A stretch of DNA of 37,147 nt from a virus: the IMG/VR virus record IMGVR_UViG_3300021963_000331, positions 1 through 37,147 of that record, one strand, 5' to 3'. Below are positions 5,673 to 36,986 of this stretch, one piece after another. The notes below the pieces were generated by a model. The model worked only from the letters and a program-made list of their open reading frames with translations. It did no database searches and was not told where the DNA came from. The first letter of the stretch is position 1; every line of letters begins with the position of its first letter. The translations under genes were made by a program, and so were the position numbers.

Positions 5673-5697
5673 TGTTTTTACCCTTTATCTTTTTTAT

Positions 5698-5705
5698 TAT
5701 TTATG
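5698..5705 (-). promoter_or_regulatory. T4-type late promoter box (CATAAATA)
   Basis: On the minus strand CATAAATA lies 26 bases upstream of the fibre ATG at 5672, the same spacing as the TATAAATA box at 8921-8928 to its gene. Known: T4 late promoters consist of a single -10-like TATAAATA recognised by the phage sigma factor gp55, and related phages tolerate changes at the first base. The predicted leader would be about 19 bases and would hold the ribosome-binding site. Confidence 0.55.
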
Positions 5706-5707
5706 TT

Positions 5708-8941: not shown

Positions 8942-9628
8942 ATGAAAACGATCTTGATGCTGAAATACGGCACAAAATATTCTAAGGAAGATGTTGATCG
9001 TATTATTACTGCAACCGATGGTAAGTATAACTATGTGTGTATTACCGATGATACCAATCTTGATCCTAGAGTAAAAGTAATTCCTCTTCCAGAAGATGTA
9101 GATGGCACATTCATCAAAGTATGGATGTATGGATTAGAGGGTCTTGGCGATGTTCTTTACTTTGATCTTGATATAAGAATACAAAAAGATATCGATCATT
9201 TGTGGAATTATATTGACGAATGCCCTACAATATGCTATACATATTGGAAAGATATAGGTTGGGTAGATAAAACGGCTCGGTCTTATAGTGAACAATATTT
9301 GAGTAACTATAACTCCAGCGCCGTTCTATGGCGATCTGGTAGTCCAAAAGCTAAAGCGATATGGGAACATTTCGAAAAAGATATGGACTATTACATGATC
9401 AAGTATTGGGGTGACGATAGATTTCTATGGCATGAAAAGTTCGACTTCAAGTGGTTTCCTAAGGGAGAGTTTTACTCGTTTCTATATGGAGCAGATTATT
9501 ATGATCCAGAAAAAAGAATTGTGGATCGTTATCGACCAGAATACACCGTGTGCCTACTAAATGGCTTAGATTATTATCCAGGATACGACAAGAAATATGA
9601 TGAACTTTCTAACAATAAAATGGGGTAA
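8942..9628 (+). CDS. Glycosyltransferase-like protein, paralogue 1
   Basis: A 228-residue protein, first gene of the opposite-strand island. Seen: MKTILMLKYGTKYSKEDVDR, CITDD at 33-37, PLP at 48-50, and YFDLDIRIQ with the Asp-x-Asp motif at about 75-77. A YNSSAVLW segment and a GDDRFLWHEKF segment follow. Known: a hydrophobic strand followed by DxD is the metal and nucleotide-sugar site of GT-A glycosyltransferases, and families with K-W/Y-G-x-K-Y starts are annotated as putative glycosyltransferases in phages and bacteria. No signal peptide or membrane segment. GGAAA lies before the ATG. It is the most diverged and shortest-looping of the four. The acceptor is unknown. Confidence 0.75.
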   Translation: MKTILMLKYGTKYSKEDVDRIITATDGKYNYVCITDDTNLDPRVKVIPLPEDVDGTFIKVWMYGLEGLGDVLYFDLDIRIQKDIDHLWNYIDECPTICYTYWKDIGWVDKTARSYSEQYLSNYNSSAVLWRSGSPKAKAIWEHFEKDMDYYMIKYWGDDRFLWHEKFDFKWFPKGEFYSFLYGADYYDPEKRIVDRYRPEYTVCLLNGLDYYPGYDKKYDELSNNKMG

Positions 9629-10364
9629 AAAGTATTCTGGGCATTACGTCAGCCATATGTATAATATGGTCAAGAAGAACTACACCAAAGATTTTAGATT
9701 CATTTGTTACACCGATGATCCAGAAGATATTGACGAGAATGTAGAGATTGTTCCCATTCCAGATGATGATCTTTTGCACCCAAAATATTGGTTTGGCAAA
9801 GAAGACTTCTGCTTTGACCGCGCTAAGTTCTTGGTGTTTAACTCCGAAGAATGGCTAGACTGCGAACCAGAAGATAAGTTTTGTTATTTCGATTTAGATG
9901 TTGTCATTCAAGATAATATCGATGAAGTTGACTTTCTGGCCGAAAAGCCTAGAATACTCCATTCTCTCTGGCAACCAGAAGGCCAGATAGACGATAGATT
10001 CTTCATCGAAACTAGAGGCACATATTTCAATTCAAGTATGATGCTCTGGTCATATGGGCAATGCCGTCATATATATTATGACGTTTTCGAAGAGGGCGAT
10101 ATTGTCTTTAAGACTTTCTTCAAGGGAAGTGATAACTATCACTACTGGCGCCAAAGAAACTTCTGGACAAATATTCCTTATGACTGGGCATATTCATGGA
10201 ACAGAGGACGATATCATCCAGAAGATGTAGAGCGTTTCAAGTTTAGAGAAGATGCGAAAATCTGTCTGTTTAATACGGACAATGTTCCTCATCCATCGGC
10301 AAAGCAACACATAGAACTTAGCGAATGTAGTGACAGAAGAATAATTGATTTATGGACAAAATAA
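9597..10364 (+). CDS. Glycosyltransferase-like protein, paralogue 2
   Basis: A 255-residue paralogue. Seen: FLTIKWGKKYSGHYVSHMYN, ICYTDD at about 36-41, VPIP at 52-55, the insertion HPKYWFGKEDF, CYFDLDVVIQDNID with DxD at 99-101, FNSSMMLW, then a GSDNYHYWRQRNFW and WAYSWNRGR segment and KICLFNTDNVPHP at the C-terminal end. The island's four proteins share this order of motifs. Its start overlaps the end of paralogue 1 by 32 bases, with ATGATG as alternative first codons. It is closest to paralogue 3, sharing the HPKYWFG insertion, which suggests these two came from the later duplication. Substrate unknown. Confidence 0.78.
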   Translation: MMNFLTIKWGKKYSGHYVSHMYNMVKKNYTKDFRFICYTDDPEDIDENVEIVPIPDDDLLHPKYWFGKEDFCFDRAKFLVFNSEEWLDCEPEDKFCYFDLDVVIQDNIDEVDFLAEKPRILHSLWQPEGQIDDRFFIETRGTYFNSSMMLWSYGQCRHIYYDVFEEGDIVFKTFFKGSDNYHYWRQRNFWTNIPYDWAYSWNRGRYHPEDVERFKFREDAKICLFNTDNVPHPSAKQHIELSECSDRRIIDLWTK

Positions 10365-11179
10365 GAGTTAACTATATCTGTTGTAAATGGGGCACCAAGT
10401 ATGATGCCGAATTTGTCAATCGACTTTATCGAATGGCAAAGAAGCATACGCCAGATAATTTTGAGTTTCACTTCTATTGCTATACCGATAATAGTGAAGG
10501 TTTTGAAAATGAAATCCAGGTCATCGACTTTCCAGATATCCCCAATATCCACCCGAAATACTGGTTCGGTTCAGAAGATTTCAAATACGGCATGGCGCGT
10601 TGCTGGGACAGGCCCAAGACGTTCATCTTCAATACCCACAACTTCGCAGAGGATAAACCTACTGGAAGATTTGTCTTCTTTGACCTTGACGTTATTATCC
10701 AAAATGATCTATCGCCCATCATCACCTATGACTTCGATCATCCGACAAAGCTGAGGTCGTGGTGGCAGGATCCACGACCAATGAAATCTCGAAACTTCAA
10801 GCTGGCACACGGTGCATATACAAATGGTAGCTGCATGGTATGGTCAGATGATCAGACAGAATGCATCTGGCAAGACGTTCTAGAACATCAAGAACGTATC
10901 TGGTTTACATTTACAGACGGCACGGATAACTATCATAGTTGGCGGTGGGGTGAGTTTAGTAATACACCTCTGTGGAAACATTTTCCTAGCACATTTGCAT
11001 ACTCATATAATCGAGGAAGAGATTGGGAAGCAGATGATTTAGAAGTCGGAGTATATAGAAAAGATTGTATTCTATGCGTGTTTAATGTGGACTTGCTTCC
11101 CTTTCAAGACAATCGCAGAGGTAAAGTGAAACAGGAATCTCTGGTTGATCCTGATCTCCTAGAACATTGGAATGTATAA
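10352..11179 (+). CDS. Glycosyltransferase-like protein, paralogue 3
   Basis: A 275-residue paralogue, the longest. Seen: RVNYICCKWGTKYDAEFVNR, FYCYTDN, the HPKYWFGSEDF insertion as in paralogue 2, VFFDLDVIIQNDL with DxD at 111-113, an AHGAYTNGSCMVW segment in place of the FNSS of the others, GTDNYHSWRWGEF, FAYSYNRGR and CILCVFNVDLLP. These are the same GT-A-like landmarks, with small loops added. Its ATG overlaps the stop of paralogue 2 by 13 bases. Its own stop overlaps the next start (TAATG). All residues expected for metal and sugar-nucleotide binding are present, so it is likely active, but acceptor and donor cannot be read. Confidence 0.78.
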   Translation: MDKIRVNYICCKWGTKYDAEFVNRLYRMAKKHTPDNFEFHFYCYTDNSEGFENEIQVIDFPDIPNIHPKYWFGSEDFKYGMARCWDRPKTFIFNTHNFAEDKPTGRFVFFDLDVIIQNDLSPIITYDFDHPTKLRSWWQDPRPMKSRNFKLAHGAYTNGSCMVWSDDQTECIWQDVLEHQERIWFTFTDGTDNYHSWRWGEFSNTPLWKHFPSTFAYSYNRGRDWEADDLEVGVYRKDCILCVFNVDLLPFQDNRRGKVKQESLVDPDLLEHWNV

Positions 11180-11862
11180 TGATTAATATCTACACCGTAA
11201 AGTGGGGCTTCAAATATGGTCCTGAATATGTCAACAAAATATTTGAACAATGTAAAAAACACATTACCAGTGAATTTGAGTTCCATTGCATAACGGAACA
11301 TGCAACAGATTTAAATCCTGAAATAATTGTTGTTCCTATACCAGAAAATAACTATTATGAAAAATGGTGGAATAAACTATATCTGTTTGATCGCCACTTT
11401 ATTCGCAAGCAAGGCGAAAAACTGTTCTTTGATTTAGATATTGAAATTCAGAATAATATTGATTGTATCGTAGAGCATGATCCTGGTGATAAACTTACTT
11501 TCATTCGAACGCATTGGCATAATCTAAAGAAGATGAAGGACGATACTAAGGAAATTCCTCATAAGTATACAGACCTTAATTCAAGTGTATTGAGATGGAA
11601 TGATAAATTAGATGTTGACAAAATCACCAAGTTTGTTAGAGATTATCCTGATCAGATGTTTTTTTATTATCGCGGTCTTGATAATATGTTCGGTCATCAA
11701 AGAGAGCGCCTTCTAAAGATAGACTATTTTCCAGATGGCTGGGTATACAGTTACAATTATGGTTATATGTGGCCCACAGATACCAGAGAGCAAGTTCTTC
11801 GAGAAGAGCCACTAATTTGTTTATATGATTCAATGGAAAGACCACAAGATGCTAAACTATAA
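11179..11862 (+). CDS. Glycosyltransferase-like protein, paralogue 4
   Basis: A 227-residue paralogue. Seen: MINIYTVKWGFKYGPEYVNK, VPIP at 52-55, a NKLYLFDRHF helix that is typical of the family just before the DxD, LFFDLDIEIQNNID with DxD at 85-87, LNSSVLRW, GLDNMFGHQRERL and WVYSYNYGYMWP. I start at the ATG at 11179, which overlaps the preceding stop (TAATG). The frame can be extended to a TTG at 11167, but that is less likely. The CITEH at 37-41 replaces the CxTDD of paralogues 1 and 2. The next gene begins inside its 3' end. Confidence 0.78.
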   Translation: MINIYTVKWGFKYGPEYVNKIFEQCKKHITSEFEFHCITEHATDLNPEIIVVPIPENNYYEKWWNKLYLFDRHFIRKQGEKLFFDLDIEIQNNIDCIVEHDPGDKLTFIRTHWHNLKKMKDDTKEIPHKYTDLNSSVLRWNDKLDVDKITKFVRDYPDQMFFYYRGLDNMFGHQRERLLKIDYFPDGWVYSYNYGYMWPTDTREQVLREEPLICLYDSMERPQDAKL

Positions 11863-12502
11863 TTTTTTGAATAACTATCGTAATTGGGGTGATGGTCTAG
11901 AAAAGATCAGTCATGAGCTACCGTGGAAGCATGAAGACTTTCGAAAGTCGCTAAATCCTAACACCATGGATGCCGCGATTTGGCTAGTTGAAAATTTAAA
12001 AGATTTAGTTCAAACAAAAGAACTAGATATCACTATTCTAAATTCTTGGCTAGGATTTCCACTAGTACCACTTCTTTGCGAAAATCTAAGCGTAAAGAAG
12101 TTAAATCTAATCGATATTGACAAAGATGCATTGGAGTTGTCCAAAGTCTTTAATAGATATTATACCGAAAAGGATATTGAACTTAATCATCTTAATTGGG
12201 ATGTGCCATTTGCGTATCATGATATTAATGCACTAAATACAGATGTTGTAATTTCACTGGGATGCGAGACAATGTATCCTCTAAAGAATATGACTACTGC
12301 AAATAAAGACTGTATCTTTGCCTGTCAGTCATCTAATGTGTTTCGTGAAATGTATGGTATCAACTGTGTGCCAACACTAGAAGATCACATTGAAAATGTT
12401 GGAGTGAAGACCGTAATGTATGATGGAACTATCCAGCAATCTTATTGGTCTTGGGATGGTAAAGTAGACTTTGATAGATTTATGGTAATCGGAAAAAAGT
12501 AA
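11849..12502 (+). CDS. Class I SAM-dependent methyltransferase-like protein
   Basis: A 217-residue protein, last of the plus-strand island. Seen: an N-terminal helix region, DITILNSWLGFPLVPLLCE (position of the SAM-binding motif I, with a Ser-Trp-Leu-Gly loop instead of the usual Gly-x-Gly), then LNLIDIDKDALELSKVFNRY with the acidic residue expected to bind the ribose, and TDVVISLGCETMYPL as a motif IV-like strand. The order fits class I Rossmann methyltransferases, with a degenerate motif I. The start at 11849 has GGAAAG upstream and overlaps the previous gene by 14 bases. Its stop abuts the stop of the convergent gene with no spacer. Substrate unknown; sugar, protein or small-molecule acceptors are all possible. 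Confidence 0.65.
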   Translation: MLNYNFLNNYRNWGDGLEKISHELPWKHEDFRKSLNPNTMDAAIWLVENLKDLVQTKELDITILNSWLGFPLVPLLCENLSVKKLNLIDIDKDALELSKVFNRYYTEKDIELNHLNWDVPFAYHDINALNTDVVISLGCETMYPLKNMTTANKDCIFACQSSNVFREMYGINCVPTLEDHIENVGVKTVMYDGTIQQSYWSWDGKVDFDRFMVIGKK

Positions 12503-16535: not shown

Positions 16536-19500
16536 TTACGCCTGCAATGCAATTGCACGAAGTTCGCGGCACTTAGGAACAACACAAGCCTTAGATGACA
16601 GAGGAACTACCTTAACTGCGAATGTTTTATAACCGGTATAAGTCACGCCGTTCGAAGTATATTCAAATACCCCGTTATTCAACGAAGTCGATGGAATATC
16701 ATATGAATATTCTACGAAGCTAGATGAAGTACCTGATGGGATAGTAGTAGTCAATTCTACCCAATCCTTTTCATCAAAACCTTCTGGATCGCTTTGATGT
16801 AAGAACTTACCGTATACCTTAACGTCTGTGCCTTCTGGCATATACTGACTTAGATATACTCTCAAGTCCTCTGCTTCCTGCCCATCATCTAGAACAACTT
16901 GGCGAGAAACATATTTCGATCTTGCGTTTCCGATACCGATATCTTCATTCGTTGCATCGTTGTTTACGTCATTAGCAACAACAATCATAGAACACTTTCT
17001 CAAGTCGATAACTGGAGAAACTGTAGAAGTTTGAGATACCATACCTAGCTTAATCTTGAATGACTTATCGCCACCAAGATCGGCTTGCTCATTTGAATAT
17101 GAACGAACAGCGGCATCAAATGTTAGTTCGGTTGTCTTATCGGGAACAAAGTTATAATAAGTTGTAGATGCTGCTGATTCGCTGCCAGTATTTGTTGTGG
17201 CCGAATATGACCAGATTAACTGACATGGTGTATGATCGAGGTAACCTACGTTAGCACCAAGAGCATTTAGAGCCTTGTCTTCAAGTTCTGCAATCGTAGC
17301 ATATGACGTTCCATTTCCTACAACATCATTGACTGCAAATTGTCCGCTGTCAACAAAAATCTTTGCAACATTATAAAGAGAGTCGTAGTTATGAACAAAG
17401 CCGGTATTCAGATTAACAGTGACGTTAGCATTAACACCGCTGCCACTGACAATTGTTAGGGTAGGATTACTTGTATAACCAGCACCCGGATTTGTAACTA
17501 CAACATTTGTTACAATGCCACCAGAAATGGTAACAGCAACAGTTGCGTTTGATGTAGCACCGCCACCGCTAAGTGTGTGTGAAATAGTTCCGTTAGTGTA
17601 GCCAGAACCAGCATTCACGATATCGAATGTGAAGCCATGGATCTTATCACCGGATGCAAAGGCTGAGCCTGAGAATGAATCGAATTTCGCATAGTCTACA
17701 TCAAATGTATTCAATGTGATATCTGCGGTAGCCGTAATATCAAAGTCTGCACGATTAAGTTCAAACTTGATATCTTCTGCCTGCCATGCTGTCCATGTTC
17801 TGTTATTTGCAGAAGTGAATAACACTCCAGCATTTGGCTGCTCTGAAATACGAGTAGTTGTATTCAGTTGATTTTCACCAATTTCTGAAACCCAGATTTC
17901 ATAGTTAGGATCATTACCTGCTGGTAGAAGAACAAAGCAATATTCCGTATTGTTTTGTAGATATACTGGTGATGGGAAAGTAAATGTAGTAGATGCAGCC
18001 GCGTTGGTCGCATCAACATTTACCTGATCTGGTGTCAGAATGACTTCACCAAAAGGAATAATCTTATTACCAGGATAACCATTCACAACTTCGCGAAGCT
18101 GTAAGGTAATTGGATTTGTTGTCGATTTCTTCTTGAAGTAGATATCAATAGAAGTCGTGTAGCAGCCAAATGGCATATCAGAAACCATAAATGTCTGCGC
18201 AATAGGATCCAGACTGATTCTTGGAAACTCAAAATTAAAATTGAACGCAGGTGGCGGCGCAGGATCTGGTGCCTGAACTTGCGTTACTTCTGTGACATTA
18301 GTAACGTTATTTGTAACATTAGTAATGTTTGTGTTGTTAACTACAGTAGTATTATTTGTTACTTCGGTAACATTTGTAATATCATTAACAGTAGTAAATG
18401 TATTATTAACTGTCACGTTTTGAACAACACCCACTGCTCGTTCGCCTAGGCGATTGACTGTGGTATTCGAATCCGAAGTTGTTCTGGAATCGAACACTGT
18501 ATTAGTAGCTAGATTTGCAACGCGAGTTGATACTACAGTATCTTGTACCGACTGAGACAATCCATTTGAGGAGAATGCCATCGATGCAGATGTAGTTACA
18601 AATTTTTCTCTATTGTTAATATCGTCCGCAAGACGGAATAGCTTTTGGCCTACGCGGAATGTGCCGGCGGGAATTCTGAATTGCCCATAGCATTCGCCCA
18701 AGTCATTTGTGATTAGAGCATCACCATAATCACCTGTAGCATTTGCGCTATTCAGAACGGAATTTTCTACACCACTAACAATACCAGACAATGGACGGCA
18801 GTGTTCTGCTACCGACATACCATCAAAGAATGGATAAACGCGAGTTTTCGGCTTCATTCTCTTTGCTGAGAATGTAACGACAATCGAGCGCATGAATGGA
18901 ATGATAGAAGTATTTGTTACTCTAGCACCAATTCGTTGAGTCTGAGTCTCAGGCGTTACATTCAGTTGAATGCCCTGTCTGGTTTGACGCTGTTCTGTTG
19001 TAGTTGTTACAATTGCAATATCTTCTTGGAAGAGAGTATCGCCACGAATTGCAGTGTTGCCAGCCGCAGTTTGTGTATCGGTTGTTACTCTACCCGTACC
19101 GAGATCCTGCCAGTCTTCCCACTGTGTACCATACGCATCGGCTAGAGTTTCCCACGCATCATAGTTACCATCGAAGTTGGCTGCAACGTCGGGAAGTGTT
19201 GTCGTGTCTGTCCAGTTATCTACTGGTGGATCCAGAGTAATTTCGCCGATGTAATTGAACAGAAGTTCGCCGGTGCAATTACGGAATTTTGATGCCTGAA
19301 GTTGGCTGATCATGGCTATCTCTGTATATGGCAGAGTTAGTAGATCACCGGTTTTTCTAACATTGCTTGATGCAGTCGAATTATATTGCAGGTCAATGTT
19401 TTCCATGAAGAAGAATGGACGCATTTCCTTGGCAACTGGATCAATAGCAATATGATATTCATTGCTCATCACATTACCAACGTTGTGACCAGTAAATGCA

Positions 19501-22406
19501 TCAACAAGAATACCATTCTTGAAGCGATTTAGTCCTGCGCCGTCAGTAATTGTTAGATCGGCCGCAGACTTCTCCAGAAGATTGAGCGAAGTATAATATT
19601 CTAGGCGATTTAGGCGCTGTTCAAGTGTGCCGATATCGCGCATTGTATAGCGGCGATTATCAATTGCTTTATACTTAACACCATAGTCTGGTCTTCCAGC
19701 GGCCTTTGCTACGTTTGGAGCAAGTGAAGGATATGGAGGAATATTGACTACTGCAATCGATAGAGCATTGTCTGGCTCAACTGGTTCAATTGGTGATAGC
19801 GAAGATACACCATATACAGAAGAGAACACACCCTGATCGTCCATGATGATACGATCTTTTCTTCCCAGATAATATTCAATATCTGTTGTAAACTGTTCTG
19901 TTGGAACTGGCGTAATAATTGCACCACCAGTTGGTCCGCTAGGCGAAGAGCCTACAGTCGGGTTGACAGTTGCCGTTCCTGGACTTGTAGTAAATGTGAT
20001 GGTGTCATCCCAGCGAGGACGGAAATCTAGTGTATCACGAAGATCATAACTTACGCCCGATGCGGTAGATGTATAGATTGGAATTTGTTCTGTTCTAATC
20101 GTACCAGCTGCACCGGTTTCATCATCAATCGGATACGAATTTACTGTATAGAAATTATATGCAGTAGTTGGCGATCCACCATGAGTGAAATAATCAAATG
20201 TTACTACTAGCTTTTTATTTGTTAGTGTAAGACTTGCACCTGGCTTTTTGACGATTCTAGCATTTGCGTAGAAGTTATCACGCTGACCAGTATCGAATGT
20301 AAATAGATCAGTAACATCGGTACCGCTAGTTTGAATGTCTGCGGCAGATGTTGCATAGTCTCCGATCTTTACGGAACGAAGTTTATAACCGTCAGATGCA
20401 CCCAGATTATATGTACCAGTTGTGTTGCCACTCGCATTCGTATCTAGAACAACAACAGCACTCTCTCTGAGAACTTTTGTTACCTGATTAGCATTAGCGA
20501 CTTGAACCTTGCAGTGAATACGAACGCCAGTTTGACCACTTACGTTAGCAATGTTATGCGGAACGGTAATTGTAATCTGTGAACCAGTATTTGTTACGGT
20601 GAAGCCAGATGCAGTAAGGTCAAGAACCTTACCGATAGGATAGCTCACATTGTTGATTGTGCAAGCAGCTTTAGTAGATACTACAATGTTTCCTAAGATT
20701 TCAGTTGGTGTTAGTGTTCCAACTGTGAATGGGAAACTTTCTGGGCTGCTTACAGAAAATGTAATAGTATTGTTGGTGTCTAGCGTATCGTCAAACTGCT
20801 TAGTATATTCGAAGCTATTATTTACCGAAGTTGGATTAGTAGTCTTCAATGCTTTAGCAGGGAACTTGAAAAGAAGATTGCTAAACTTAGATTCGTATAG
20901 ATATGCCTTACTGTCAACCAATACTACGTCGGCATGACCGTCTGCGGTTGTATCATAGTATACGCCAGCAACATCTTCGAAATTATATGAAGATGCCATT
21001 TGAATGTCATACAGATACATACGATAAATTGCTGCCGCTGTTCCTGGTGTGCCGCTTTCACGAACAATATAACGAACGCGGGCAGTACCTATTTGTGAAC
21101 CTGGTGCTATATGTGCAGAATAAGTTGTAGCAGTAATTGCGCCAGCTGCCGCACTTCTCAGAGAAACTGTATCTCCGGCGGCAATGTCCCAGTTACCACA
21201 AACTTCATTGACAAGAATGTAGCTGCCGAATGCAGTAGAAACTGGAATGTCATTAACTACATTCGTGGTGTTGCCCTTAGGAACGAATATGTATTCTGTC
21301 TGGCGTGTTTCGTATGAATAGCCGCGAACATATGCCTTACCTGCTTCAATACCAATTGCAAGAAGTGTTTCATCACCACCTGCCGCTGGATTCTCGACAT
21401 TGTAAGGAATAAGACCGCCGTTTGAGCCAGTATCAAGATGTTCTTTAATAAGAATAGGGAATGCTTTTACTGTATAGTTACCAGACTCGTCGTAAGTGCG
21501 CTTGGCCAGATTTCTACCTAAGTCCGCATAGATACGATCTTCTGTGACCGCTGTATTAAGCTGGCCATTTGTAATTACAAGATATTCGCTGAAATTGTCA
21601 CCGATTGTTTCATCAAATGCATACTTGACTAGTCCGGCTGTTGTGACATAACGGTCGGCACCAGGCGCCGCATAGTTGAATGTTCCTTGAGCTGGATCAA
21701 GTAGAGTTTGATCTGTCTCGTGAGTGACAATACTTTCTACAATCTCAAAACCAACATGGAAAGAAGGATAAGCATTATACTTTAGTAGCTCAATAGTAGT
21801 CTTGGCAAATGGTAAAAACTTACCATCTAAGAAAATAATACCATCGTCAAGCGTTAGGAATGATCCTCTACCAAAATAGTAGTCGCCCTCTACAAACGAT
21901 GAACCAACAACAAACGTATCACCGATTTGATTGCCGACTTCCGATTCAATTACTCGAATAGTTTCGTTTGCAAAAAAGTGAACGGCGTCGGTAGAGCCAT
22001 CACCGGTTAGGTAGCGAAAATATAGGGTGTTTAAGTTTGGAGCATCCGCTTCGGAGCCAGCGATTGCATAGATAATTTCTGCTTGAATAGATGAAGTTAG
22101 ACCAATGACTTTGGCGCCGACATAATCGGTGAGTCCAGTAACAGTGATTCCCGATGCATCGGTGTCTAAAACTTTAACAAAATCTCTGGCTGTATCTAGC
22201 TTGAAATCGCAGCCTGCAACAACCGATCCGTTCTTGAAAATATGGCCGCCAAATTTACCAACTTGGTCCTGAAGAACAGACTGGAGTTGTGTCAACTCTC
22301 TCGCTTGAACAGCATAGCCCGGCTTGAATAGAATTCTATTATAATTTTTTGCAATAGCATCCGCATAATCGTCATAATACGGGGATACATTTAAGTCCAA
22401 GGCCAT
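16536..22406 (-). CDS. Giant DUF4815-like baseplate/tail-periphery protein
   Basis: A 1956-residue protein, the longest here. Seen: the N-terminus MALDLNVSPYYDDYADAIAK, then ILFKPGYAVQARELTQLQ and a QVGKFGGHIFKNGS segment, which I recognise as the DUF4815 family of T4-like marine phages. Residues of about 1320-1375 are an Asn/Thr/Val run (for example VTNNTTVVNNTNITNV), followed by a Pro-rich hinge. A C-terminal domain begins FPRISLDPIAQTFMVSDMPF, and residues of about 1595-1660 hold two NAGSGYT/NPGAGYT units like those in gp8. By position it takes the place of T4 gp10/gp11, so a peripheral baseplate or fibre-docking role is likely. It is one uninterrupted frame. Confidence 0.82.
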   Translation of the reverse strand: MALDLNVSPYYDDYADAIAKNYNRILFKPGYAVQARELTQLQSVLQDQVGKFGGHIFKNGSVVAGCDFKLDTARDFVKVLDTDASGITVTGLTDYVGAKVIGLTSSIQAEIIYAIAGSEADAPNLNTLYFRYLTGDGSTDAVHFFANETIRVIESEVGNQIGDTFVVGSSFVEGDYYFGRGSFLTLDDGIIFLDGKFLPFAKTTIELLKYNAYPSFHVGFEIVESIVTHETDQTLLDPAQGTFNYAAPGADRYVTTAGLVKYAFDETIGDNFSEYLVITNGQLNTAVTEDRIYADLGRNLAKRTYDESGNYTVKAFPILIKEHLDTGSNGGLIPYNVENPAAGGDETLLAIGIEAGKAYVRGYSYETRQTEYIFVPKGNTTNVVNDIPVSTAFGSYILVNEVCGNWDIAAGDTVSLRSAAAGAITATTYSAHIAPGSQIGTARVRYIVRESGTPGTAAAIYRMYLYDIQMASSYNFEDVAGVYYDTTADGHADVVLVDSKAYLYESKFSNLLFKFPAKALKTTNPTSVNNSFEYTKQFDDTLDTNNTITFSVSSPESFPFTVGTLTPTEILGNIVVSTKAACTINNVSYPIGKVLDLTASGFTVTNTGSQITITVPHNIANVSGQTGVRIHCKVQVANANQVTKVLRESAVVVLDTNASGNTTGTYNLGASDGYKLRSVKIGDYATSAADIQTSGTDVTDLFTFDTGQRDNFYANARIVKKPGASLTLTNKKLVVTFDYFTHGGSPTTAYNFYTVNSYPIDDETGAAGTIRTEQIPIYTSTASGVSYDLRDTLDFRPRWDDTITFTTSPGTATVNPTVGSSPSGPTGGAIITPVPTEQFTTDIEYYLGRKDRIIMDDQGVFSSVYGVSSLSPIEPVEPDNALSIAVVNIPPYPSLAPNVAKAAGRPDYGVKYKAIDNRRYTMRDIGTLEQRLNRLEYYTSLNLLEKSAADLTITDGAGLNRFKNGILVDAFTGHNVGNVMSNEYHIAIDPVAKEMRPFFFMENIDLQYNSTASSNVRKTGDLLTLPYTEIAMISQLQASKFRNCTGELLFNYIGEITLDPPVDNWTDTTTLPDVAANFDGNYDAWETLADAYGTQWEDWQDLGTGRVTTDTQTAAGNTAIRGDTLFQEDIAIVTTTTEQRQTRQGIQLNVTPETQTQRIGARVTNTSIIPFMRSIVVTFSAKRMKPKTRVYPFFDGMSVAEHCRPLSGIVSGVENSVLNSANATGDYGDALITNDLGECYGQFRIPAGTFRVGQKLFRLADDINNREKFVTTSASMAFSSNGLSQSVQDTVVSTRVANLATNTVFDSRTTSDSNTTVNRLGERAVGVVQNVTVNNTFTTVNDITNVTEVTNNTTVVNNTNITNVTNNVTNVTEVTQVQAPDPAPPPAFNFNFEFPRISLDPIAQTFMVSDMPFGCYTTSIDIYFKKKSTTNPITLQLREVVNGYPGNKIIPFGEVILTPDQVNVDATNAAASTTFTFPSPVYLQNNTEYCFVLLPAGNDPNYEIWVSEIGENQLNTTTRISEQPNAGVLFTSANNRTWTAWQAEDIKFELNRADFDITATADITLNTFDVDYAKFDSFSGSAFASGDKIHGFTFDIVNAGSGYTNGTISHTLSGGGATSNATVAVTISGGIVTNVVVTNPGAGYTSNPTLTIVSGSGVNANVTVNLNTGFVHNYDSLYNVAKIFVDSGQFAVNDVVGNGTSYATIAELEDKALNALGANVGYLDHTPCQLIWSYSATTNTGSESAASTTYYNFVPDKTTELTFDAAVRSYSNEQADLGGDKSFKIKLGMVSQTSTVSPVIDLRKCSMIVVANDVNNDATNEDIGIGNARSKYVSRQVVLDDGQEAEDLRVYLSQYMPEGTDVKVYGKFLHQSDPEGFDEKDWVELTTTIPSGTSSSFVEYSYDIPSTSLNNGVFEYTSNGVTYTGYKTFAVKVVPLSSKACVVPKCRELRAIALQA

Positions 22407-29526: not shown

Positions 29527-30867
29527 TTATTTTTTCAATCGAGGAAATTGACAGAAACTACCAGCAGTGCCAATGCCATGGTCGTTCCAGAATGTTCTGG
29601 CCAATGGCGCTCTTCCTCCTGGCGATGATGGCGCTCGAATACCGATGTGAACCCAGGGTTCGCTAGTTCCTCTAGGTTGGCGATCTGGTGCAAACTCATA
29701 AAGTAACTGATCGTATGGAACGAACTTAGCAATATCTTCTGCCACGCGAATTAGTGTACCAGAACCATTTGGATAATTTGGATAGAATACCATATCAGCC
29801 GCCCAGCCCACATCATGGGCAGATGTTGACGAGCCACCACCAGGAACTGTTCCATTTCTAAAACAAGAATTAATTGCCATATAAGGATATTTGTGCTTGA
29901 TTGGATCAAGACATAATACAGCAAGTTCTCTCAAATTACTTACTAGCTCATATGCCGACCATCTTCTATTACAGTGAGTTTTTCCTCCCATAGGAATTAC
30001 GGCACCACCACATCTTGTATGTAGAACATCATACAGGGTGTAATAGTGAGATAGTCTAATGCTCTTAGCCGCATTATTATAATCAATATTTTTTGGTATA
30101 GGAGGTAACTCTTGATTTGTGATATATTCTTTATTCGTGGGTTTTAGACCTTTAGCCGGAGGAAGAGGATCACCCGATGCCGTGGCTGGAACAGAATCAC
30201 TGCCCTCGCCAGCAGTAAAATTAGGACTTCCATCGCCCTGATCACAGCCACCATAATTACTATCTGGCGTGGAATCACCGCCCGTTGTGGGTGTTGCGCC
30301 ATCAGTCGCAGTTGGAGTATCTCCACCAGCTACACCACCAACAATACCTTTAATCTTTTCAACAATTGCACCAGTACCTTTTGCACCCATATCAGGATGA
30401 AGACCATCAGAAGTCGGATAGTTATCTAACTCAATTACTGGGTCATTTTTTTCTGCGGCAACTTTTCTAACAAGTGCCGCAGCCTTCTGCATATTGGCGA
30501 GAACTGCTTGTTCTGGTTTGCCATTACTTTGCTTAGTATATGGAACTATCCAGATAACTTTGGGAGAATTGAAAGATGCGCGTAATGCTCTAAGATTACT
30601 TTCTGTTTTTTGACCACCCTGATCATTTGTACCGGCGGAAATAACAGTATATCTAGAGCCGCTTTGACCTTTGTATGAGGACAGTATCTTATTAGTATCG
30701 TAACCTACAGTAGCATGAGAGCTTCCTGTTCCTGTTTTCTGATCGCTGGCTATTCCGCCTTGGCCCGATGCTGCACCAATTCTAACAGCAATGCTATCGC
30801 CAACATACGAGCCACCTGAAATAGGATTTACATTAGAATTTGATGATGGTGGATTTGTATCAGCCAT
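29527..30867 (-). CDS. SGNH hydrolase-M15-type peptidase fusion
   Basis: A 446-residue bifunctional enzyme candidate. Seen: N-terminal SGNH/GDSL domain, residues of about 20-178, with GDSI (Ser25), SAGTND (Asn81, Asp82) and DGLHPD (Asp154, His157), matching blocks I, III and V. A Gly/Pro/Thr/Asp linker (about 180-245) follows, then a C-terminal domain with INSCFRNGTVPGGG, STSAHDVGWAADM (His351, Asp358) and PWVHIGIR (His407): the zinc-ligand pattern of M15-type DD-/L-Ala-D-Glu peptidases. The SGNH part may de-esterify O-acetylated or other glycans; the peptidase could cut cross-links. It starts inside the stop of the preceding gene (TAATG at 30867), so it is part of the baseplate operon. No signal peptide. 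Confidence 0.85.
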   Translation of the reverse strand: MADTNPPSSNSNVNPISGGSYVGDSIAVRIGAASGQGGIASDQKTGTGSSHATVGYDTNKILSSYKGQSGSRYTVISAGTNDQGGQKTESNLRALRASFNSPKVIWIVPYTKQSNGKPEQAVLANMQKAAALVRKVAAEKNDPVIELDNYPTSDGLHPDMGAKGTGAIVEKIKGIVGGVAGGDTPTATDGATPTTGGDSTPDSNYGGCDQGDGSPNFTAGEGSDSVPATASGDPLPPAKGLKPTNKEYITNQELPPIPKNIDYNNAAKSIRLSHYYTLYDVLHTRCGGAVIPMGGKTHCNRRWSAYELVSNLRELAVLCLDPIKHKYPYMAINSCFRNGTVPGGGSSTSAHDVGWAADMVFYPNYPNGSGTLIRVAEDIAKFVPYDQLLYEFAPDRQPRGTSEPWVHIGIRAPSSPGGRAPLARTFWNDHGIGTAGSFCQFPRLKK

Positions 30868-33800
30868 TAATCGTGTACCTCTCCAAGACTATCTCTTCCG
30901 ACATTTTTGCCGCCGCCAGCAGAGTTGATTGGTCCTCCTCCGCCACCGGCACCAGTTGTTTGTTTACCATCGATGCCAGCGACAATAGGTGATGCTGAAA
31001 TTGATACTGGTTTTTCAACTGGAATTGGATTTGCGAGTGTTGCAATCTTAGCGCCAGTTGCTTCGCTTGCTGGATCAGCCGAGTTTGCCGCAGCCGCAGT
31101 TGCGGCAGAACCAGGTGCAGTGACAGAAGCACTACCCTTGATATTCGTGACATTTTGTGTGCCGCCTTGAGCATCATCACCCTTGAGATTTGTAGTTTGT
31201 GCATTCAATGTAGTAACGTCAATTGTTGGTGCATTGAAGTCGGACGAAAGAACCTTCGCAGCCTTCAGACTTGTATTACCAGCCGCTTCTGTATTGATTG
31301 CAGCGCCAGACTTAATGTTTGTATTATTTGCCGATGTTGTATTAATTGCATTACCAGACTTGATGTTAATCGAGTCTGTACCTTCAACATTAATAACATT
31401 TGCGGACTTGACATTGGTTGATGCGATGGATTCTGTATTGATAGCACCGGCGGACTTGATATTAGTATTACCAAGAGATTCAATATTTGTATGAGTACCT
31501 GACTTACTATCAATTGTCTCTGCGGCCTTATTAAGAATTGAGCCATCAGTGTCCTGATTGATATTACCAACAGATGTATGATATGAAATACCAGCAACCT
31601 TAACGTGATAATCACCCTTAGATGTTACTCTATAGCCACTTGCTGTTAGATTATGTGTTCCGTCAATCGTAGAGTTAAAGTTGCCCGCACCATGAACTTG
31701 CATATCACCCTTGTTATCGTGAGAGAATACACCATCGTTGCGAATAAAGATACCACCGCCTACAGATAATCCAAAGTGACCGGCAACGTTTAGATTGAAG
31801 TCGTTGTGAACGTCCATGTTAACTTTACCATTCATGGTAAGATTTGCATCACCCATGATCATAACATTACATTCACCAGCAACGTGAACGTTAGCTCTAC
31901 CTTCAATTAGAATATAACCATTACTATCAACAATCGTATAATTGTCACCGACAATACGAGTTACTTGAGTACCATCTGGTCCGATTTCTTGGAATGTACC
32001 AGACTTGTGGGCAGTATGAAGTCTTTCGGCGCCAGGTGTATCATCGACTTCTGTAACGTGACCAGATTCCGATGCAGTTACTTTATTATATGGATATTGC
32101 GCCGCATAAGGCGTTTCAGGCTGTGACCATGACCCACCATGTCTACCGGCTTTTGGAATATCTTTCTTACGAAGCGCATTCTTCGCAACTGGCGATGACC
32201 CTGCGCTAAGTGTTTCTTGTCTTGCACCTTGTGAGGTTGGATCATTTTGAATATGTGTCGAGTTGATACCGACTGCCAGCGGATTAGTATCTGGTTTGCC
32301 GTCCTGACTTGGCTTAGGATATTTACCACCGGGATCATTGAAGCCACTACCAGGATCAGCGATATTAGAATCTGGTAATTGATTTACATCCGGTGGAGCC
32401 TGAGAAACTGAATGTCCAGAATCGTGGGCTGGATGTTGAACGGTATCATTAGAATGAGGATTAGTATTTGGCGCAGGAGTAGCAATCGGAGGAGCAACTC
32501 GTGTGACTTCCTTCTGAGAAGTTGCAAAGCCCTTCTGATCTTCAACAATAGTTGTTTTGACTACCGAGCCATCGCCATACTTTTCTGTAACAGTCGTAGT
32601 AGTTGTGCCGTCCGTATTTGACTTGCTTGGACCCTGTGCCGCAACTGGCGTATTATTTGAAAATGTCTTCTTGACTTTTTCGAGATTTGTAGTATATTCA
32701 CCAGCAATACCAACTTTAGCAGAAGCCAAATCTGTTGACAATGGCGTATCAGGACCAAGAGGTGGATTATTAATCTTTCTTGCCCACTCATTATATTGAT
32801 ATAAAATATCTTTATATTGCCTGAGTAATCCTACTAGAACGTCCTTGTATGCTTCCGCACTTGGCAAATCCCATTTAGCAATGCTTCCCGTAGGATCGGC
32901 AGTAGCTTCTGTTTGAAATTGCTGAATGTCTTCTGTTACATACTTAATTTCTCTAGTTAATTGAGTCTCTATATCTTCTGTTCCTTGAGGACGTTCGATT
33001 ATGAGAACATAATTTTTACTATAACTTTTATAATTGATCAGATCAAGACCATCAATTTCAATTGCATGGCCGCCGCCAGCAAAATTTTCAAGAACATTCG
33101 CATACAAGTCTTTTGCATTGAGAGGCAGTTGTCCTCTTTGCTGTGGAAAATAATACGTTCCCAACTTATATGTAAACTTCTTAGGAACAGGCGGTTTGTA
33201 ATTATTGATACGTTCTTGTTTGATAGCACCATCAATAGCAGCAATTAAAGTTGCATACTGTGGAGTTTTGATATCTGTTTTATCAATCAAATTGACAGAA
33301 GCAATAGGTATATTCTTAGACGATACTGTAACAACACCGTTTGATGCAGTCCATTGATAGGCAACTTCAACTGATCCATATGTCGTTTTCATTGGATTTG
33401 GATCAACAGGCGGTGTAGATGCTTGAGTAGAACCACCCACCGCAGCGGCAATCTGAGTTGCTGGCAGTGCAGGAACAGCTTCTGCCGATGCCGTGCCTGT
33501 CGATGGTGTAGGAGGCACTGTAGCAGGAGTTACCGGCAGATATGATGAAACAATTTGACCTTCTGCTGGAGCTTCTGTTGCAGTGGGTGAAGAGCTATCT
33601 AAAAGTCCAGTAACATTCGATGCAGCCGAAGACAATGCTCCACTAACTGCTCCTGATACTGAATTCAATGCGCCTTGTGCATTACCGGCAATACCAGCAA
33701 CTGCGCCCGCGGCATTTGATGCTGCTCCTGTTACATTAGATACAGCCGATGCACCTAATGCGGCTGCGGCGGCTGTCGCATCTTTTGCACCTGCAACCGC

Positions 33801-36035
33801 AGTAGTAAGATTATTTGCTAGATTTAATCCAGATACAACAGTAGTCGATGTTGTTAGTAGACTATCCGCTGCCTTAGTTGCCTGATCTTTCAGGGTATTG
33901 AGTGTGCTTGTTCCTGCCGCGCCGATAAGACCAGTAAGTTCAGGCTTAGTAACACCAATCGCACTAATCGCGGCCGCTTTAGCTTGTTCAAATTTATCTA
34001 AAAGACCTGGCTTTGCGCCAGTCTGTTCGATAAGTTTGGTGTTGAGAGCTGGAATAGCTGCACCAACATTACCCATCTTACTAGTTTCAGCGGCAATTAA
34101 ATCAGAAATTTTTGCTGGATCAGTTACGCCATCAATTGATGCTCGAAGAAGTGCAGTAGAGCCGGGAGGACACATACCTCTTCTATTCAATTCATTAATA
34201 ACCGCAGTCTGCGGATCATTAGCTAGACCAAAACCAGACTTCAAGGATTCGCCAATAAAACTTAGTGATGCTGGATCTACTTTACCGCTGGCACCAATAG
34301 CACCAACTGCCGTACCAACAGCTTCGGTCGCAGTATTTTCTATTTGAGTTGCAAGAGAAGTTATTTGTTTCGTTAATGAAGTTGCACTATTTACCGATGT
34401 AGGTAAAGAGACACCCACCTTAGATGCTACACTACTAATAGATGCAACCTTACTTGTTGCACCAGTTACTGCCGACGAGATACTAGAAATAGATTTTAAT
34501 GCGGATGTTGTATTTGCTGGTAATACGCTGGACGCTTTAGCTAATGCATCCTTAGCTTTATCAATTTCAGCTAATTTGTCTTTAATAACCGATGCTGCAA
34601 TACCGAGCCCAGCATTAATAATTCCACCAACATCTGCTGGAATGATACCATTACTGATTAGACCTGAAACAACACCGTTAACATTTTTGCCTGACATAAC
34701 ATCGGCTAAATCTTTAGCAGTTTCTATGAGAGCTTTAGTGCTAATTTCTGTTGTGGGTGGGCGAACACCAGCTTTTAATAGAGGCTCTTCGCTATTACTG
34801 GCCTTTGGAGTTTCAGCAAGTGAATTCCATCCTGCATCGTACCAGTATTTCGAATTGATACCATCTGCATTTGTTTTAATTACACCCTGAGAAAAGCGAA
34901 TGGCATCATCTAGCTTTGCACATAGAGCAATTGCCAGAAAGCCAGCAATCGTAGCTTTCGTAGTATTCTCATTAATAATTTTAGCATTACTTAAATCTAC
35001 AAATGCTTTTTTAAGATAATAGTAGGCTGCCTTATCTTGCATTTCTTCGTTTGTAATTAACGAGATCATGCTTCTTACCGCAGCATCTTGCTCTATGGGA
35101 ATAGGATTATACAAGAAGAAATATTGAAGATTGTTTGCGGCTTCTCTTTTATATGGCGCAAAATCATAGTCGCCATTGGTTTCTTGAACTGCTTCCGCGT
35201 AAGTCTTAATTCTTTCGGCCGCGCCTGGACCAGTTGGGTGAGAATGAATGCAATCTTCTGCCCAATCTTGAATTGATGACTTTAGGAATCCTATATCAAC
35301 AAGTTGTGAAACTGTCAATCTATATGCGCCGTATTCACCTCTGTTATGAACTTTACGCCAGTTATTTCTTTTTCCATTGACAACATACTTTTTATGAATT
35401 GCCATTTGACAGGCTTTAAGTAGTTTTACAGAATCTTCTTTTGTCAGAATACCAAGAGTACCAATATTGGGTATAACATCTACCGTGGTTTCATACCCAG
35501 AATTGGCTTTCGATGTTTGTAGTGTAGAAGGAACTGCGCCCATAACTTCGGCAGCCGCTTTTGCGACATTAGTAGAAACGCCAGCTAACTTCAATGCACC
35601 AGTAATGACTCCATTAATATTTTCATCCGAGGCTGCATTAATAATGCTAAGACCATTTGATAACAATTTAGAAGTTGCGGGATCTATCACACCAGATTTT
35701 GTAAGAGTCGCCAATAGCTTATTCGCATTTGCGGTGACATTGCTTCCTAGAGATGAAGATGCCACATTGATGCTTTTATCTAAAGTCTTAGCATCTGTTT
35801 TTGATATAACGCCAGTCGCAGATAAAGCAGAAGTGACTGATCCTAACGAAGGAGTATGGCCAGCTTCAATTGAGTTTGCAATATTCAATCCGGCTTTAAC
35901 AACAGTAGCTTCATCCTTCGAAAGAACGCCAGCAGAAGAAAGAGCATTTACCGTCGTCGCTAAATCGGGAAGTTTACCCGTTTTTAGAGACTTTACCGCA
36001 GAATTGATCAGACTGGTAGATTGTAATAATGACAT
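30867..36035 (-). CDS. 1722-residue protein with the gp5-type needle domain
   Basis: A giant protein with a gp5C-like end. Seen: residues 1-190 hold three to four helical repeats (NALSSAGVLSKDEATVVKAG, SALSATGVISKTDAKTLDKS). About 195-415 is a separate globular domain with YGAYRLTVSQLVDIGFLK. About 430-860 is long, Ala/Ser/Thr-rich and probably helical, 880-1105 globular, then a Pro/Gly linker. From about 1315, YNKVTASESGHVTEVDDTPG and GTQVTRIVGDNYTIVDSNGY are clearly T4 gp5 C-terminal domain, followed by beta-helix rungs with VNMDVHNDFNLNVAGHFGLS and four 16-residue NIKS/NVKS repeats. Gly-rich tail. The rest of gp5 is encoded by the preceding gene. The N-terminal 1300 residues have no match I recognise. 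Confidence 0.8.
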   Translation of the reverse strand: MSLLQSTSLINSAVKSLKTGKLPDLATTVNALSSAGVLSKDEATVVKAGLNIANSIEAGHTPSLGSVTSALSATGVISKTDAKTLDKSINVASSSLGSNVTANANKLLATLTKSGVIDPATSKLLSNGLSIINAASDENINGVITGALKLAGVSTNVAKAAAEVMGAVPSTLQTSKANSGYETTVDVIPNIGTLGILTKEDSVKLLKACQMAIHKKYVVNGKRNNWRKVHNRGEYGAYRLTVSQLVDIGFLKSSIQDWAEDCIHSHPTGPGAAERIKTYAEAVQETNGDYDFAPYKREAANNLQYFFLYNPIPIEQDAAVRSMISLITNEEMQDKAAYYYLKKAFVDLSNAKIINENTTKATIAGFLAIALCAKLDDAIRFSQGVIKTNADGINSKYWYDAGWNSLAETPKASNSEEPLLKAGVRPPTTEISTKALIETAKDLADVMSGKNVNGVVSGLISNGIIPADVGGIINAGLGIAASVIKDKLAEIDKAKDALAKASSVLPANTTSALKSISSISSAVTGATSKVASISSVASKVGVSLPTSVNSATSLTKQITSLATQIENTATEAVGTAVGAIGASGKVDPASLSFIGESLKSGFGLANDPQTAVINELNRRGMCPPGSTALLRASIDGVTDPAKISDLIAAETSKMGNVGAAIPALNTKLIEQTGAKPGLLDKFEQAKAAAISAIGVTKPELTGLIGAAGTSTLNTLKDQATKAADSLLTTSTTVVSGLNLANNLTTAVAGAKDATAAAAALGASAVSNVTGAASNAAGAVAGIAGNAQGALNSVSGAVSGALSSAASNVTGLLDSSSPTATEAPAEGQIVSSYLPVTPATVPPTPSTGTASAEAVPALPATQIAAAVGGSTQASTPPVDPNPMKTTYGSVEVAYQWTASNGVVTVSSKNIPIASVNLIDKTDIKTPQYATLIAAIDGAIKQERINNYKPPVPKKFTYKLGTYYFPQQRGQLPLNAKDLYANVLENFAGGGHAIEIDGLDLINYKSYSKNYVLIIERPQGTEDIETQLTREIKYVTEDIQQFQTEATADPTGSIAKWDLPSAEAYKDVLVGLLRQYKDILYQYNEWARKINNPPLGPDTPLSTDLASAKVGIAGEYTTNLEKVKKTFSNNTPVAAQGPSKSNTDGTTTTTVTEKYGDGSVVKTTIVEDQKGFATSQKEVTRVAPPIATPAPNTNPHSNDTVQHPAHDSGHSVSQAPPDVNQLPDSNIADPGSGFNDPGGKYPKPSQDGKPDTNPLAVGINSTHIQNDPTSQGARQETLSAGSSPVAKNALRKKDIPKAGRHGGSWSQPETPYAAQYPYNKVTASESGHVTEVDDTPGAERLHTAHKSGTFQEIGPDGTQVTRIVGDNYTIVDSNGYILIEGRANVHVAGECNVMIMGDANLTMNGKVNMDVHNDFNLNVAGHFGLSVGGGIFIRNDGVFSHDNKGDMQVHGAGNFNSTIDGTHNLTASGYRVTSKGDYHVKVAGISYHTSVGNINQDTDGSILNKAAETIDSKSGTHTNIESLGNTNIKSAGAINTESIASTNVKSANVINVEGTDSINIKSGNAINTTSANNTNIKSGAAINTEAAGNTSLKAAKVLSSDFNAPTIDVTTLNAQTTNLKGDDAQGGTQNVTNIKGSASVTAPGSAATAAAANSADPASEATGAKIATLANPIPVEKPVSISASPIVAGIDGKQTTGAGGGGGPINSAGGGKNVGRDSLGEVHD
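31262..31480 (-). repeat. Tandem 48-bp units encoding 16-residue beta-helix rungs
   Basis: Four in-frame units encode 16-residue repeats of the type xxxTN(I/V)KSAxx-INxEx, plus a degenerate fifth (AGNTSLKAAKVLSS). Sixteen is twice the eight-residue period known for the T4 gp5 beta-helix. They follow directly on the gp5C-like domain and would extend the needle. Confidence 0.75.
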
Positions 36036-36047
36036 TTAATAATCCTA

Positions 36048-36986
36048 TTAAGGTAATTGACCGTTTTGGAATAGAGCAGCTTCGGCATTTCTGCGCTTCA
36101 CTAGACCAGCTAAAACACCCATTCCTTTACCACTTTTAATTCCTCGGTTTCTAATCACGTCGGCCGCAGCTTTAATATCTCCACTCATGATAGCGCCGCT
36201 GAGACCGGCATTCATAAGTCGTTTAGTTGCCCCACCGCCGCAGTTATATGTGTAGGATATGATTGCCGCTTTTTGATTATCATTCATCTTGTCCCATGCA
36301 GCGCCAGATGCGGCCTTTGCTGCACCACCATATTTTTTCTGTAGATCGGATGCAAGAAGTGTTAGTGCCTGTGCTTTGGTAATTCTAGTTCCCGCGCCGT
36401 TTGCAGATGCCAATTTAAGTTTTGTACCATCTCCAAGATCGACATAACCTGTCTTAGCTTCCGCCGGAAAGATAACGTGACCAGCACCTAGAGTTATTTC
36501 ACCATCACCGATATTCTTTGCAGGATCACAAATTCCTTCGAAGTAAGCAATAAATTTAGCAGCAACCTCTAAGAACGGACCACTTGCGATGCCACCGCCT
36601 CCGGTATCACCGGCACCATCACTCGTAGAATTACCTCCTGATGGCGCGCAAGGATCACCATATGGTCCACCAGGAACAGCACCCACTGTACCGAAGAACA
36701 TAGGATGTTGTCCATCAGAACCGTCAGCAAAGAACCCTACAACCCATGTTCCGTTTACTACGCCATTAGCAGATGAACCCGTACCAGAAATCGACGGATT
36801 ATTTGCTGGCATGATAGGAAATGCCCATGGCAAATCTTTTGTGGGCAGCAATTCTTTGCTATCTATGTGATAGCCCATAATACGGATACGGCATCTACCC
36901 ATGCGTAAAGGATCGTCGCGGTCTTCAACCACTCCGAACCACCAGTAAAACTGGCCTACGTTATTGGTAGTTCTATTATCCATCAT
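36048..36986 (-). CDS. gp5: Baseplate hub protein gp5: OB fold plus lysozyme
   Basis: A 312-residue hub protein that should lie at the base of the needle and degrade peptidoglycan during injection. Seen: residues of about 12-105 are the gp5 OB fold (FYWWFGVVEDRDDPLRMGRC, PTKDLPWAFPIMP, SGTGSSANGVVNGTWVVGFF). A Ser/Gly linker follows, then a lysozyme domain, 138-308, with Glu150 and the TLGAGH motif, Thr165. In T4 lysozyme, Glu-x8-Asp-x5-Thr is the catalytic set. Here Glu-Thr spacing is kept but the Asp is at 161, two residues late. The protein ends where T4 gp5 continues into its needle, which is instead found on the next gene, 12 bases away. GGAGA precedes ATGATG. Confidence 0.88.
   Translation of the reverse strand: MMDNRTTNNVGQFYWWFGVVEDRDDPLRMGRCRIRIMGYHIDSKELLPTKDLPWAFPIMPANNPSISGTGSSANGVVNGTWVVGFFADGSDGQHPMFFGTVGAVPGGPYGDPCAPSGGNSTSDGAGDTGGGGIASGPFLEVAAKFIAYFEGICDPAKNIGDGEITLGAGHVIFPAEAKTGYVDLGDGTKLKLASANGAGTRITKAQALTLLASDLQKKYGGAAKAASGAAWDKMNDNQKAAIISYTYNCGGGATKRLMNAGLSGAIMSGDIKAAADVIRNRGIKSGKGMGVLAGLVKRRNAEAALFQNGQLP

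Follow-up and report, generated by a model that had tools for sequence, protein, structure and literature searches.

The central spike of phage T4 is a textbook cell-puncturing device, kin to the VgrG spike of the T6SS. Its gp5 is a single polypeptide that is cut between lysozyme and needle during assembly. The locus described here raises the question of how such a spike is built when the modules of gp5 lie in neighbouring reading frames. We analysed a virus record of 37,147 nt (IMG/VR IMGVR_UViG_3300021963_000331), referred to as the window. Its minus strand encodes, in order, a 312-aa OB and lysozyme protein, a 1722-aa needle protein, a 446-aa SGNH and M15 protein, gp25 and gp6. The first three genes comprise the following features.

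36048-36986 (-): 312-aa protein, OB fold plus GH24 lysozyme (Gp5_OB and Phage_lysozyme)
36663..36986 (-): residues 1-108 of the 312-aa protein, OB fold; the portion of gp5 predicted to bind the gp27 hub
36081..36542 (-): GH24 lysozyme cassette, residues 149-302 (Phage_lysozyme, PF00959, 3.2e-14, over the cut-off)
30867-36035 (-): 1722-aa needle protein (C-terminal part of phrog_430; full-length homologues on IMG/VR contigs)
35496..36035 (-): residues 1-180 of the needle protein, Ala/Ser/Thr-rich, with helical-hairpin repeats of ~43 aa read by eye
34776..35495 (-): residues 181-420, putative lysozyme-fold (lytic transglycosylase-like) domain lacking a conserved catalytic Glu
33396..34775 (-): residues 421-880, Ala/Ser-rich spacer, probably helical, judged from sequence only
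32676..33383 (-): residues ~885-1120, fast-evolving beta/helical domain, fold without assignment
32046..32354 (-): residues 1228-1330, comprising the linker that follows the OB fold in gp5 (GFNDPGGKYPKP...DTNPLAVG) and the segment ahead of the needle (SWSQPETPYAAQYPYNKV...)
31176..32045 (-): residues 1331-1620, gp5C-type triple-stranded beta-helix needle (T4 gp5 alignment, 8-residue periodicity)
30867..31175 (-): residues 1621-1722, low-complexity C-terminal tail, which in relatives runs into a fused M15 domain
29527-30867 (-): 446-aa protein, SGNH/GDSL-like domain plus M15/VanY-like peptidase (PF13472, phrog_894)

The 312-aa and 1722-aa ORFs are separated by 12 nt, and the stop codon of the needle gene overlaps the 446-aa gene by 1 nt. 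At its N-terminus the 312-aa protein matches Gp5_OB (PF06714) over the cut-off (5.8e-11), residues 8-103 of T4 gp5 align with its start by phmmer, and the N-terminal part of phrog_430 (gp5) matches it as well. A Gly/Ser-rich linker joins this OB fold to the GH24 cassette, whose PF00959 match predicts murein hydrolase activity, and the Pfam matches confirm the sequence-only reading that the chain ends after the lysozyme. Positions 310-487 of phrog_430 match residues 1287-1467 of the 1722-aa protein (3.6e-47), as does T4 gp5 349-461 with residues 1275-1388 (5.4e-19), so that the alignment with T4 gp5 (1pdl/1k28) is distributed over residues 13-104 of the first protein and 1275-1388 of the second. 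The motif DDTPGAERLH is at residue 1331, close to the position of about 1315 at which the gp5C signature had been placed, and the pre-needle stretch YPYNKV is at ~1314. The needle lies near the C-terminus behind a very large extra N-terminal part, as had also been proposed. The needle columns show a mean identity of 0.126 at a period of 8, as expected of the beta-helix assigned here, and only 0.071-0.081 when any other period between 5 and 12 is used; a Pfam search with the 1722-aa protein alone gave no match at E 0.1. The first protein is hence the gp5 OB fold with a C-terminal GH24 domain, and the second carries the linker followed by a gp5C-type needle. OB fold, hydrolase and needle, one polypeptide in a T4 gp5-type spike, are here found in two ORFs that are separate across relatives; judged by homology, this family of uncultured T4-like phages needs two genes for the spike that T4 makes from a single one.

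Could a broken reading frame, or a complete gp5 elsewhere in the genome, explain the division? Large needle proteins are encoded on 28 IMG/VR contigs at 67-82% identity, the complete ones measuring 1685-1743 aa. In every case in which such a contig also covers the upstream OB gene, that gene is a separate ORF, with a 1-nt overlap or about 9-12 nt apart. A sequencing or assembly error was rejected on these grounds. The survey for the same split, which had been proposed beforehand, found the two-gene layout across dozens of IMG/VR contigs, and the wider set found by profile is likewise split; its needle proteins measure about 740 to 2003 aa, apart from one of 250 aa. No complete gp5 was present in four relatives of 117-172 kb, each of which has exactly one OB domain and one needle, the window record itself being only a 37 kb fragment of its phage genome.

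In order to place the break, we compared the needle protein with gp5 proteins that consist of one piece. Residues 1228-1275 correspond to the gp5 post-OB linker, matching positions 74-122 of the Gp5_OB profile (E 1.1e-4 in the whole-record search); the equivalent match in phage Melnitz reaches 2.7e-6. The motif GFxDPxGxYP...DTNxLAxG, at residues 1230-1258 of the needle protein, follows the OB fold in T4-type gp5 (9f4a, residues 112-137, a weak stretch of the alignment), and the linker and pre-needle columns are conserved in alignments A3 and A5. One-piece relatives in the lineage are arranged as OB-hydrolase-linker-needle-M15 (BUCT-ZZ01, L161, L169). The hydrolase is GH19 in BUCT-ZZ01, as read from its sequence, and VgrG3-C in L161 and L174, and L169 joins OB fold, intact transglycosylase (KESGG), linker, needle and M15 in a single chain. 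Therefore the gene break is located after the hydrolase and ahead of the linker. In T4-type gp5 (9f4a) the linker precedes the lysozyme, opposite to the order in these relatives. An early idea, that the hydrolase was merely hung on the C-terminus of the OB protein, was revised in view of these one-piece forms. Homology thus shows that a one-piece gp5 of this kind is OB-hydrolase-linker-needle-M15, and that related phages are split upstream of the linker.

This position bears on the proposal that gene separation replaces the T4 cleavage, with a stop and a start in place of the Ser351/Ala352 cut (PMC3004832) and the extension being a newly fused, unrelated tail protein. The alignment of residues 1275-1388 with T4 gp5 349-461, which starts near the T4 cut, would suit such an origin, as would the fact that T4 gp5* and gp5C remain together non-covalently after cleavage (PMC3004832). 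We nevertheless regard it as unlikely: the post-OB linker sits in the needle protein, with the break upstream of it, so that the split is not simply the T4 cut made genetic; moreover, the one-piece relatives carry their hydrolase before the linker, unlike T4, and the extension holds a gp5-type hydrolase fold. The N-terminal part is indeed large, but it is not wholly unrelated to gp5, given the gp5 linker at residues 1228-1275 and the gp5-type lysozyme fold predicted for residues 181-420.

The lineage contains a natural before-and-after pair: L158 and its kin are split as OB-VgrG3C and linker-needle-M15, L161 and L174 have the VgrG3-C version in one chain, and both are neighbouring groups within a clade that has 98% support. 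Parsimony on the needle tree gives five changes between split and unsplit forms, two of them forced by well-supported branches; branches are long and the exact number is unsure.

The evidence for a lysozyme fold within the needle protein came from profiles and from structure prediction. By hhalign, residues 181-420 match the hydrolase-like domain that the needle half carries in phiM9 and OLIVR5 gp5, with 96.2% probability over 163 columns. An HMM built from window relatives only scored 56.6 bits in L155, 36.9 in phiM9, 31.5 in OLIVR5 and 16.9 in L169, compared with a best score of 9.6 bits among 20,000 shuffled decoys. An AlphaFold2 model, for which the sequences of L155, phiM9, OLIVR5 and L169 were excluded from the input alignment, reached pLDDT 79.7 and pTM 0.77. 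VIA-align of this model against the PDB gave middling scores with MltC (Z 8.6) and MltE (Z 8.4) on top, all entries being lytic transglycosylases, GH124 or a chitinase-like protein. Foldseek against the viral library (BFVD) ranked the Atu_ph04 'baseplate hub + tail lysozyme' highest (E 3.4e-5), followed by a one-piece gp5. Plain Foldseek of residues 150-440 against the PDB gave only E values of about 1, with MltE heading the list. Similarly, tblastn of residues 1-423 against phage records reached only E about 0.6, to Pootjesviridae gp5, a match later backed by profile and structure. Each structural score is middling, and together with the profiles they make the predicted lysozyme-fold assignment a good one.

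We then asked whether this domain is likely to be catalytic. The catalytic Glu is intact in L169 (KESGG), OLIVR5 (RESGG) and phiM9 (KESSG) and is replaced by Val in L155, which is arranged as OB-GH19 in one gene and a transglycosylase with the Glu to Val change and an insertion in the other. In residues 181-420 of the window protein the Glu is lacking where the first long helix ends, and across 19 window-type sequences no conserved acidic residue is found in window residues 202-244. Because no conserved acidic residue stands where the catalytic Glu is expected, we infer loss of catalysis. The domain could instead be active with a shifted catalytic residue, in which case the spike would bear a second or even a third wall enzyme (GH24, transglycosylase-like, M15). 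Such activity would account for a conservation of 71-86% within the window clade, which puts residues 181-420 among the best-conserved parts of the extension and above expectation for a decaying relic; it seems improbable to us, as the 19 sequences share no acidic residue in or just after the expected Glu helix and the L155 homologue has Val at the Glu position. As far as we found, a retained and apparently inactive lysozyme inside a needle protein is new.

Long insertions interrupt the lysozyme-like domain in L150 (4100-9097) and L155 (2455-5541), about 250 residues in the latter, and both halves are still recognisable. A related transglycosylase-like domain also occurs in cyanophage S-WAM1 (L088, 3850-6945), in a protein annotated as hypothetical that is encoded a few genes before gp5; it matches the OLIVR5 gp5 domain with E 1e-4.

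The enzyme on the OB protein behaves differently from the OB fold that carries it. The OB fold is 71-94% identical in relatives. Between L017 (GH19) and L022 (GH24) the OB domains are 99% and the needle proteins 95% identical, and the enzymes are unrelated; between L010 (GH19) and L022 the values are 98% and 92%. Across split relatives the OB C-terminus bears GH24, GH19, SleB-like, PF18013/Phage_lysozyme2, VgrG3-C or VanY-like domains, the SleB assignment being weak (PF07486, 0.034 in L125) and partly read from sequence, and in Pootjesviridae the same OB-linked site is occupied by NlpC/P60. Replacement of the gp5 lysozyme is already known from CBA120 (PMC3184105). OB domains up to 99% identical that carry unrelated enzymes, next to needle proteins ~95% identical, are new as far as we found.

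The remaining extension offers fewer clues. Residues 1-180 evolve fast, with 33% identity in L065; no match to them was found in L067 or L077, and the region is absent from L067, L077 and L118. Residues 421-880 are 76-81% identical within the window clade. For residues 870-1345 the AlphaFold2 model had an overall pLDDT of 61, with about 70-90 for the ~885-1120 part, and structural comparison found nothing, either with Foldseek at E 0.001 or at Z 8; tblastn of residues ~882-1185 gave no match. That the 1722-aa protein is mainly a structural part of the tail tube or baseplate dome, possibly processed, whose hydrolase likeness at 181-420 has nothing to do with gp5 history, would agree with its size, its long Ala/Ser-rich stretches and a pre-needle stretch whose length in the split relatives from IMG/VR lies anywhere between about 285 and 1340 residues, and is quite improbable against the presence of the same type of domain inside the gp5 of L169 and the needle half of Pootjesviridae gp5.

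The third gene of the cluster shows a further rearrangement. In Melnitz, BUCT-ZZ01, L065, L067-L077, L118-L125, L142 and L150-L165, where these are complete, the needle protein continues at its C-terminus into an M15 peptidase; in the window clade this peptidase is a separate gene. That a peptidase fused to the needle in relatives stands as its own gene here is again new as far as we found. The 446-aa protein matches the phrog_894 endolysin (4.5e-10) and PF13472 (1.1e-5, below the cut-off). In close relatives the M15 protein stands alone, with 261-295 aa and without SGNH; among the relatives examined, the window alone combines SGNH and M15 in one protein. A similar SGNH domain (36-37% identity) ends an upstream tail protein (phrog_350) in L066-L075.

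Split spikes as a kind are already known, 'split T4 gp5' being in print for Atu_ph04, phiM9 and P10VF (PMC6630229). Like these, the window has OB fold and needle in different genes and a homologous lysozyme-like domain in the needle protein, and Pootjesviridae (phiM9, OLIVR5, Atu_ph04, P10VF) likewise keep the OB and hydrolase gene apart from the needle gene. In contrast to the 12 nt of the window, ~35-40 kb lie between the two genes of phiM9 and of OLIVR5. Pootjesviridae further differ in that their OB protein bears an NlpC/P60-like domain instead of GH24, their lysozyme-like domain lies just before the needle and has kept its Glu (ESSGD/ESGGD), whereas the window domain is without a conserved Glu, and the N-terminal ~300 residues of the needle protein are unlike those of the window. 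The Methylophilales phage Melnitz EXVC044M and its variants share the adjacent two-gene split upstream of the linker, an OB protein with a C-terminal enzyme and a needle protein ending in M15, but the enzyme is VanY-like, only ~33 residues precede the linker, a PAAR-like ORF comes next and the M15 is still fused. In this cultured isolate the layout had gone unremarked, and since Melnitz is split without the long extension, a divided spike can do without it. A PAAR tip is present in Melnitz and BUCT-ZZ01 and was found in none of four window-type records. BUCT-ZZ01, a Synechococcus phage, has the same modules, OB-GH19-linker-needle-M15, but in a single chain of 939 aa with no lysozyme-like extension, and CBA120/ViI-like gp5, in which the lysozyme is likewise replaced by another hydrolase (CHAP/NlpC-P60; PMC3184105), is in one piece. 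T4 itself (1K28/1PDL/5IV5) has the same OB fold, lysozyme and gp5C beta-helix, with the mature N- and C-terminal parts as separate chains; it has one gene, OB-linker-lysozyme-needle, cut after the lysozyme, and the window has two genes that part upstream of the linker, ~1200 additional residues and an M15 peptidase. We found no description of the window-type architecture in the open-access papers that the search covered.

Taken together, we consider it likely that the locus encodes a two-gene T4 central spike, with a relic hydrolase in the needle gene and a swappable enzyme on the OB gene. According to this reading, the embedded transglycosylase-type hydrolase would, in the window lineage, have been retained as the front part of the needle gene, lost its catalytic Glu and become a structural or wall-binding part. 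Before or after these changes, the OB gene would have gained a new C-terminal hydrolase, swapped repeatedly since. By analogy with T4, three OB-lysozyme chains would cap the gp27 hub and three needle chains would form the beta-helix, the OB ring and needle being held non-covalently via the linker and the needle top, like T4 gp5* and gp5C. The gp27 Pfam model gave no match in six records, the isolates Melnitz and BUCT-ZZ01 included, and the hub partner is therefore assumed. The other N-terminal helical parts probably serve as spacers or pack against the outside of the hub or the length of the spike, and the M15 peptidase, needle-fused in relatives, would be made separately in the window clade. 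The split would permit exchange of the wall enzyme with the needle untouched. We propose only tentatively that the two-gene spike has evolved as an exchange platform, with a replaceable enzyme on the hub gene and a dead lysozyme in a new job, e.g. holding on to peptidoglycan or fastening spike and hub together.

The layout suggests that a covalent link between OB fold and needle is dispensable. Hub adaptor, enzyme and needle are separated into interchangeable pieces, with closely related unsplit forms at hand for comparison, and they document clearly how enzymes have been exchanged at a single fixed position, besides a lysozyme fold that seems to be retained for a role other than cutting. For annotation, caution is needed, as pipelines label either half 'baseplate hub and tail lysozyme'.

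Other genes of the window were also recorded. A 1956-aa protein (16536-22406, minus strand) with strong matches to phrog_358 and phrog_877, of unknown function, adjoins the baseplate wedge genes. A block of overlapping plus-strand genes (8942-12502) stands amid the minus-strand structural genes, and its first gene (8942-9628) matches a glycosyltransferase family (phrog_1962). Finally, a plus-strand open frame of 355 codons (4648-5715), mostly antisense to a virion structural gene (4047-5672, minus strand), is probably due to chance but long.
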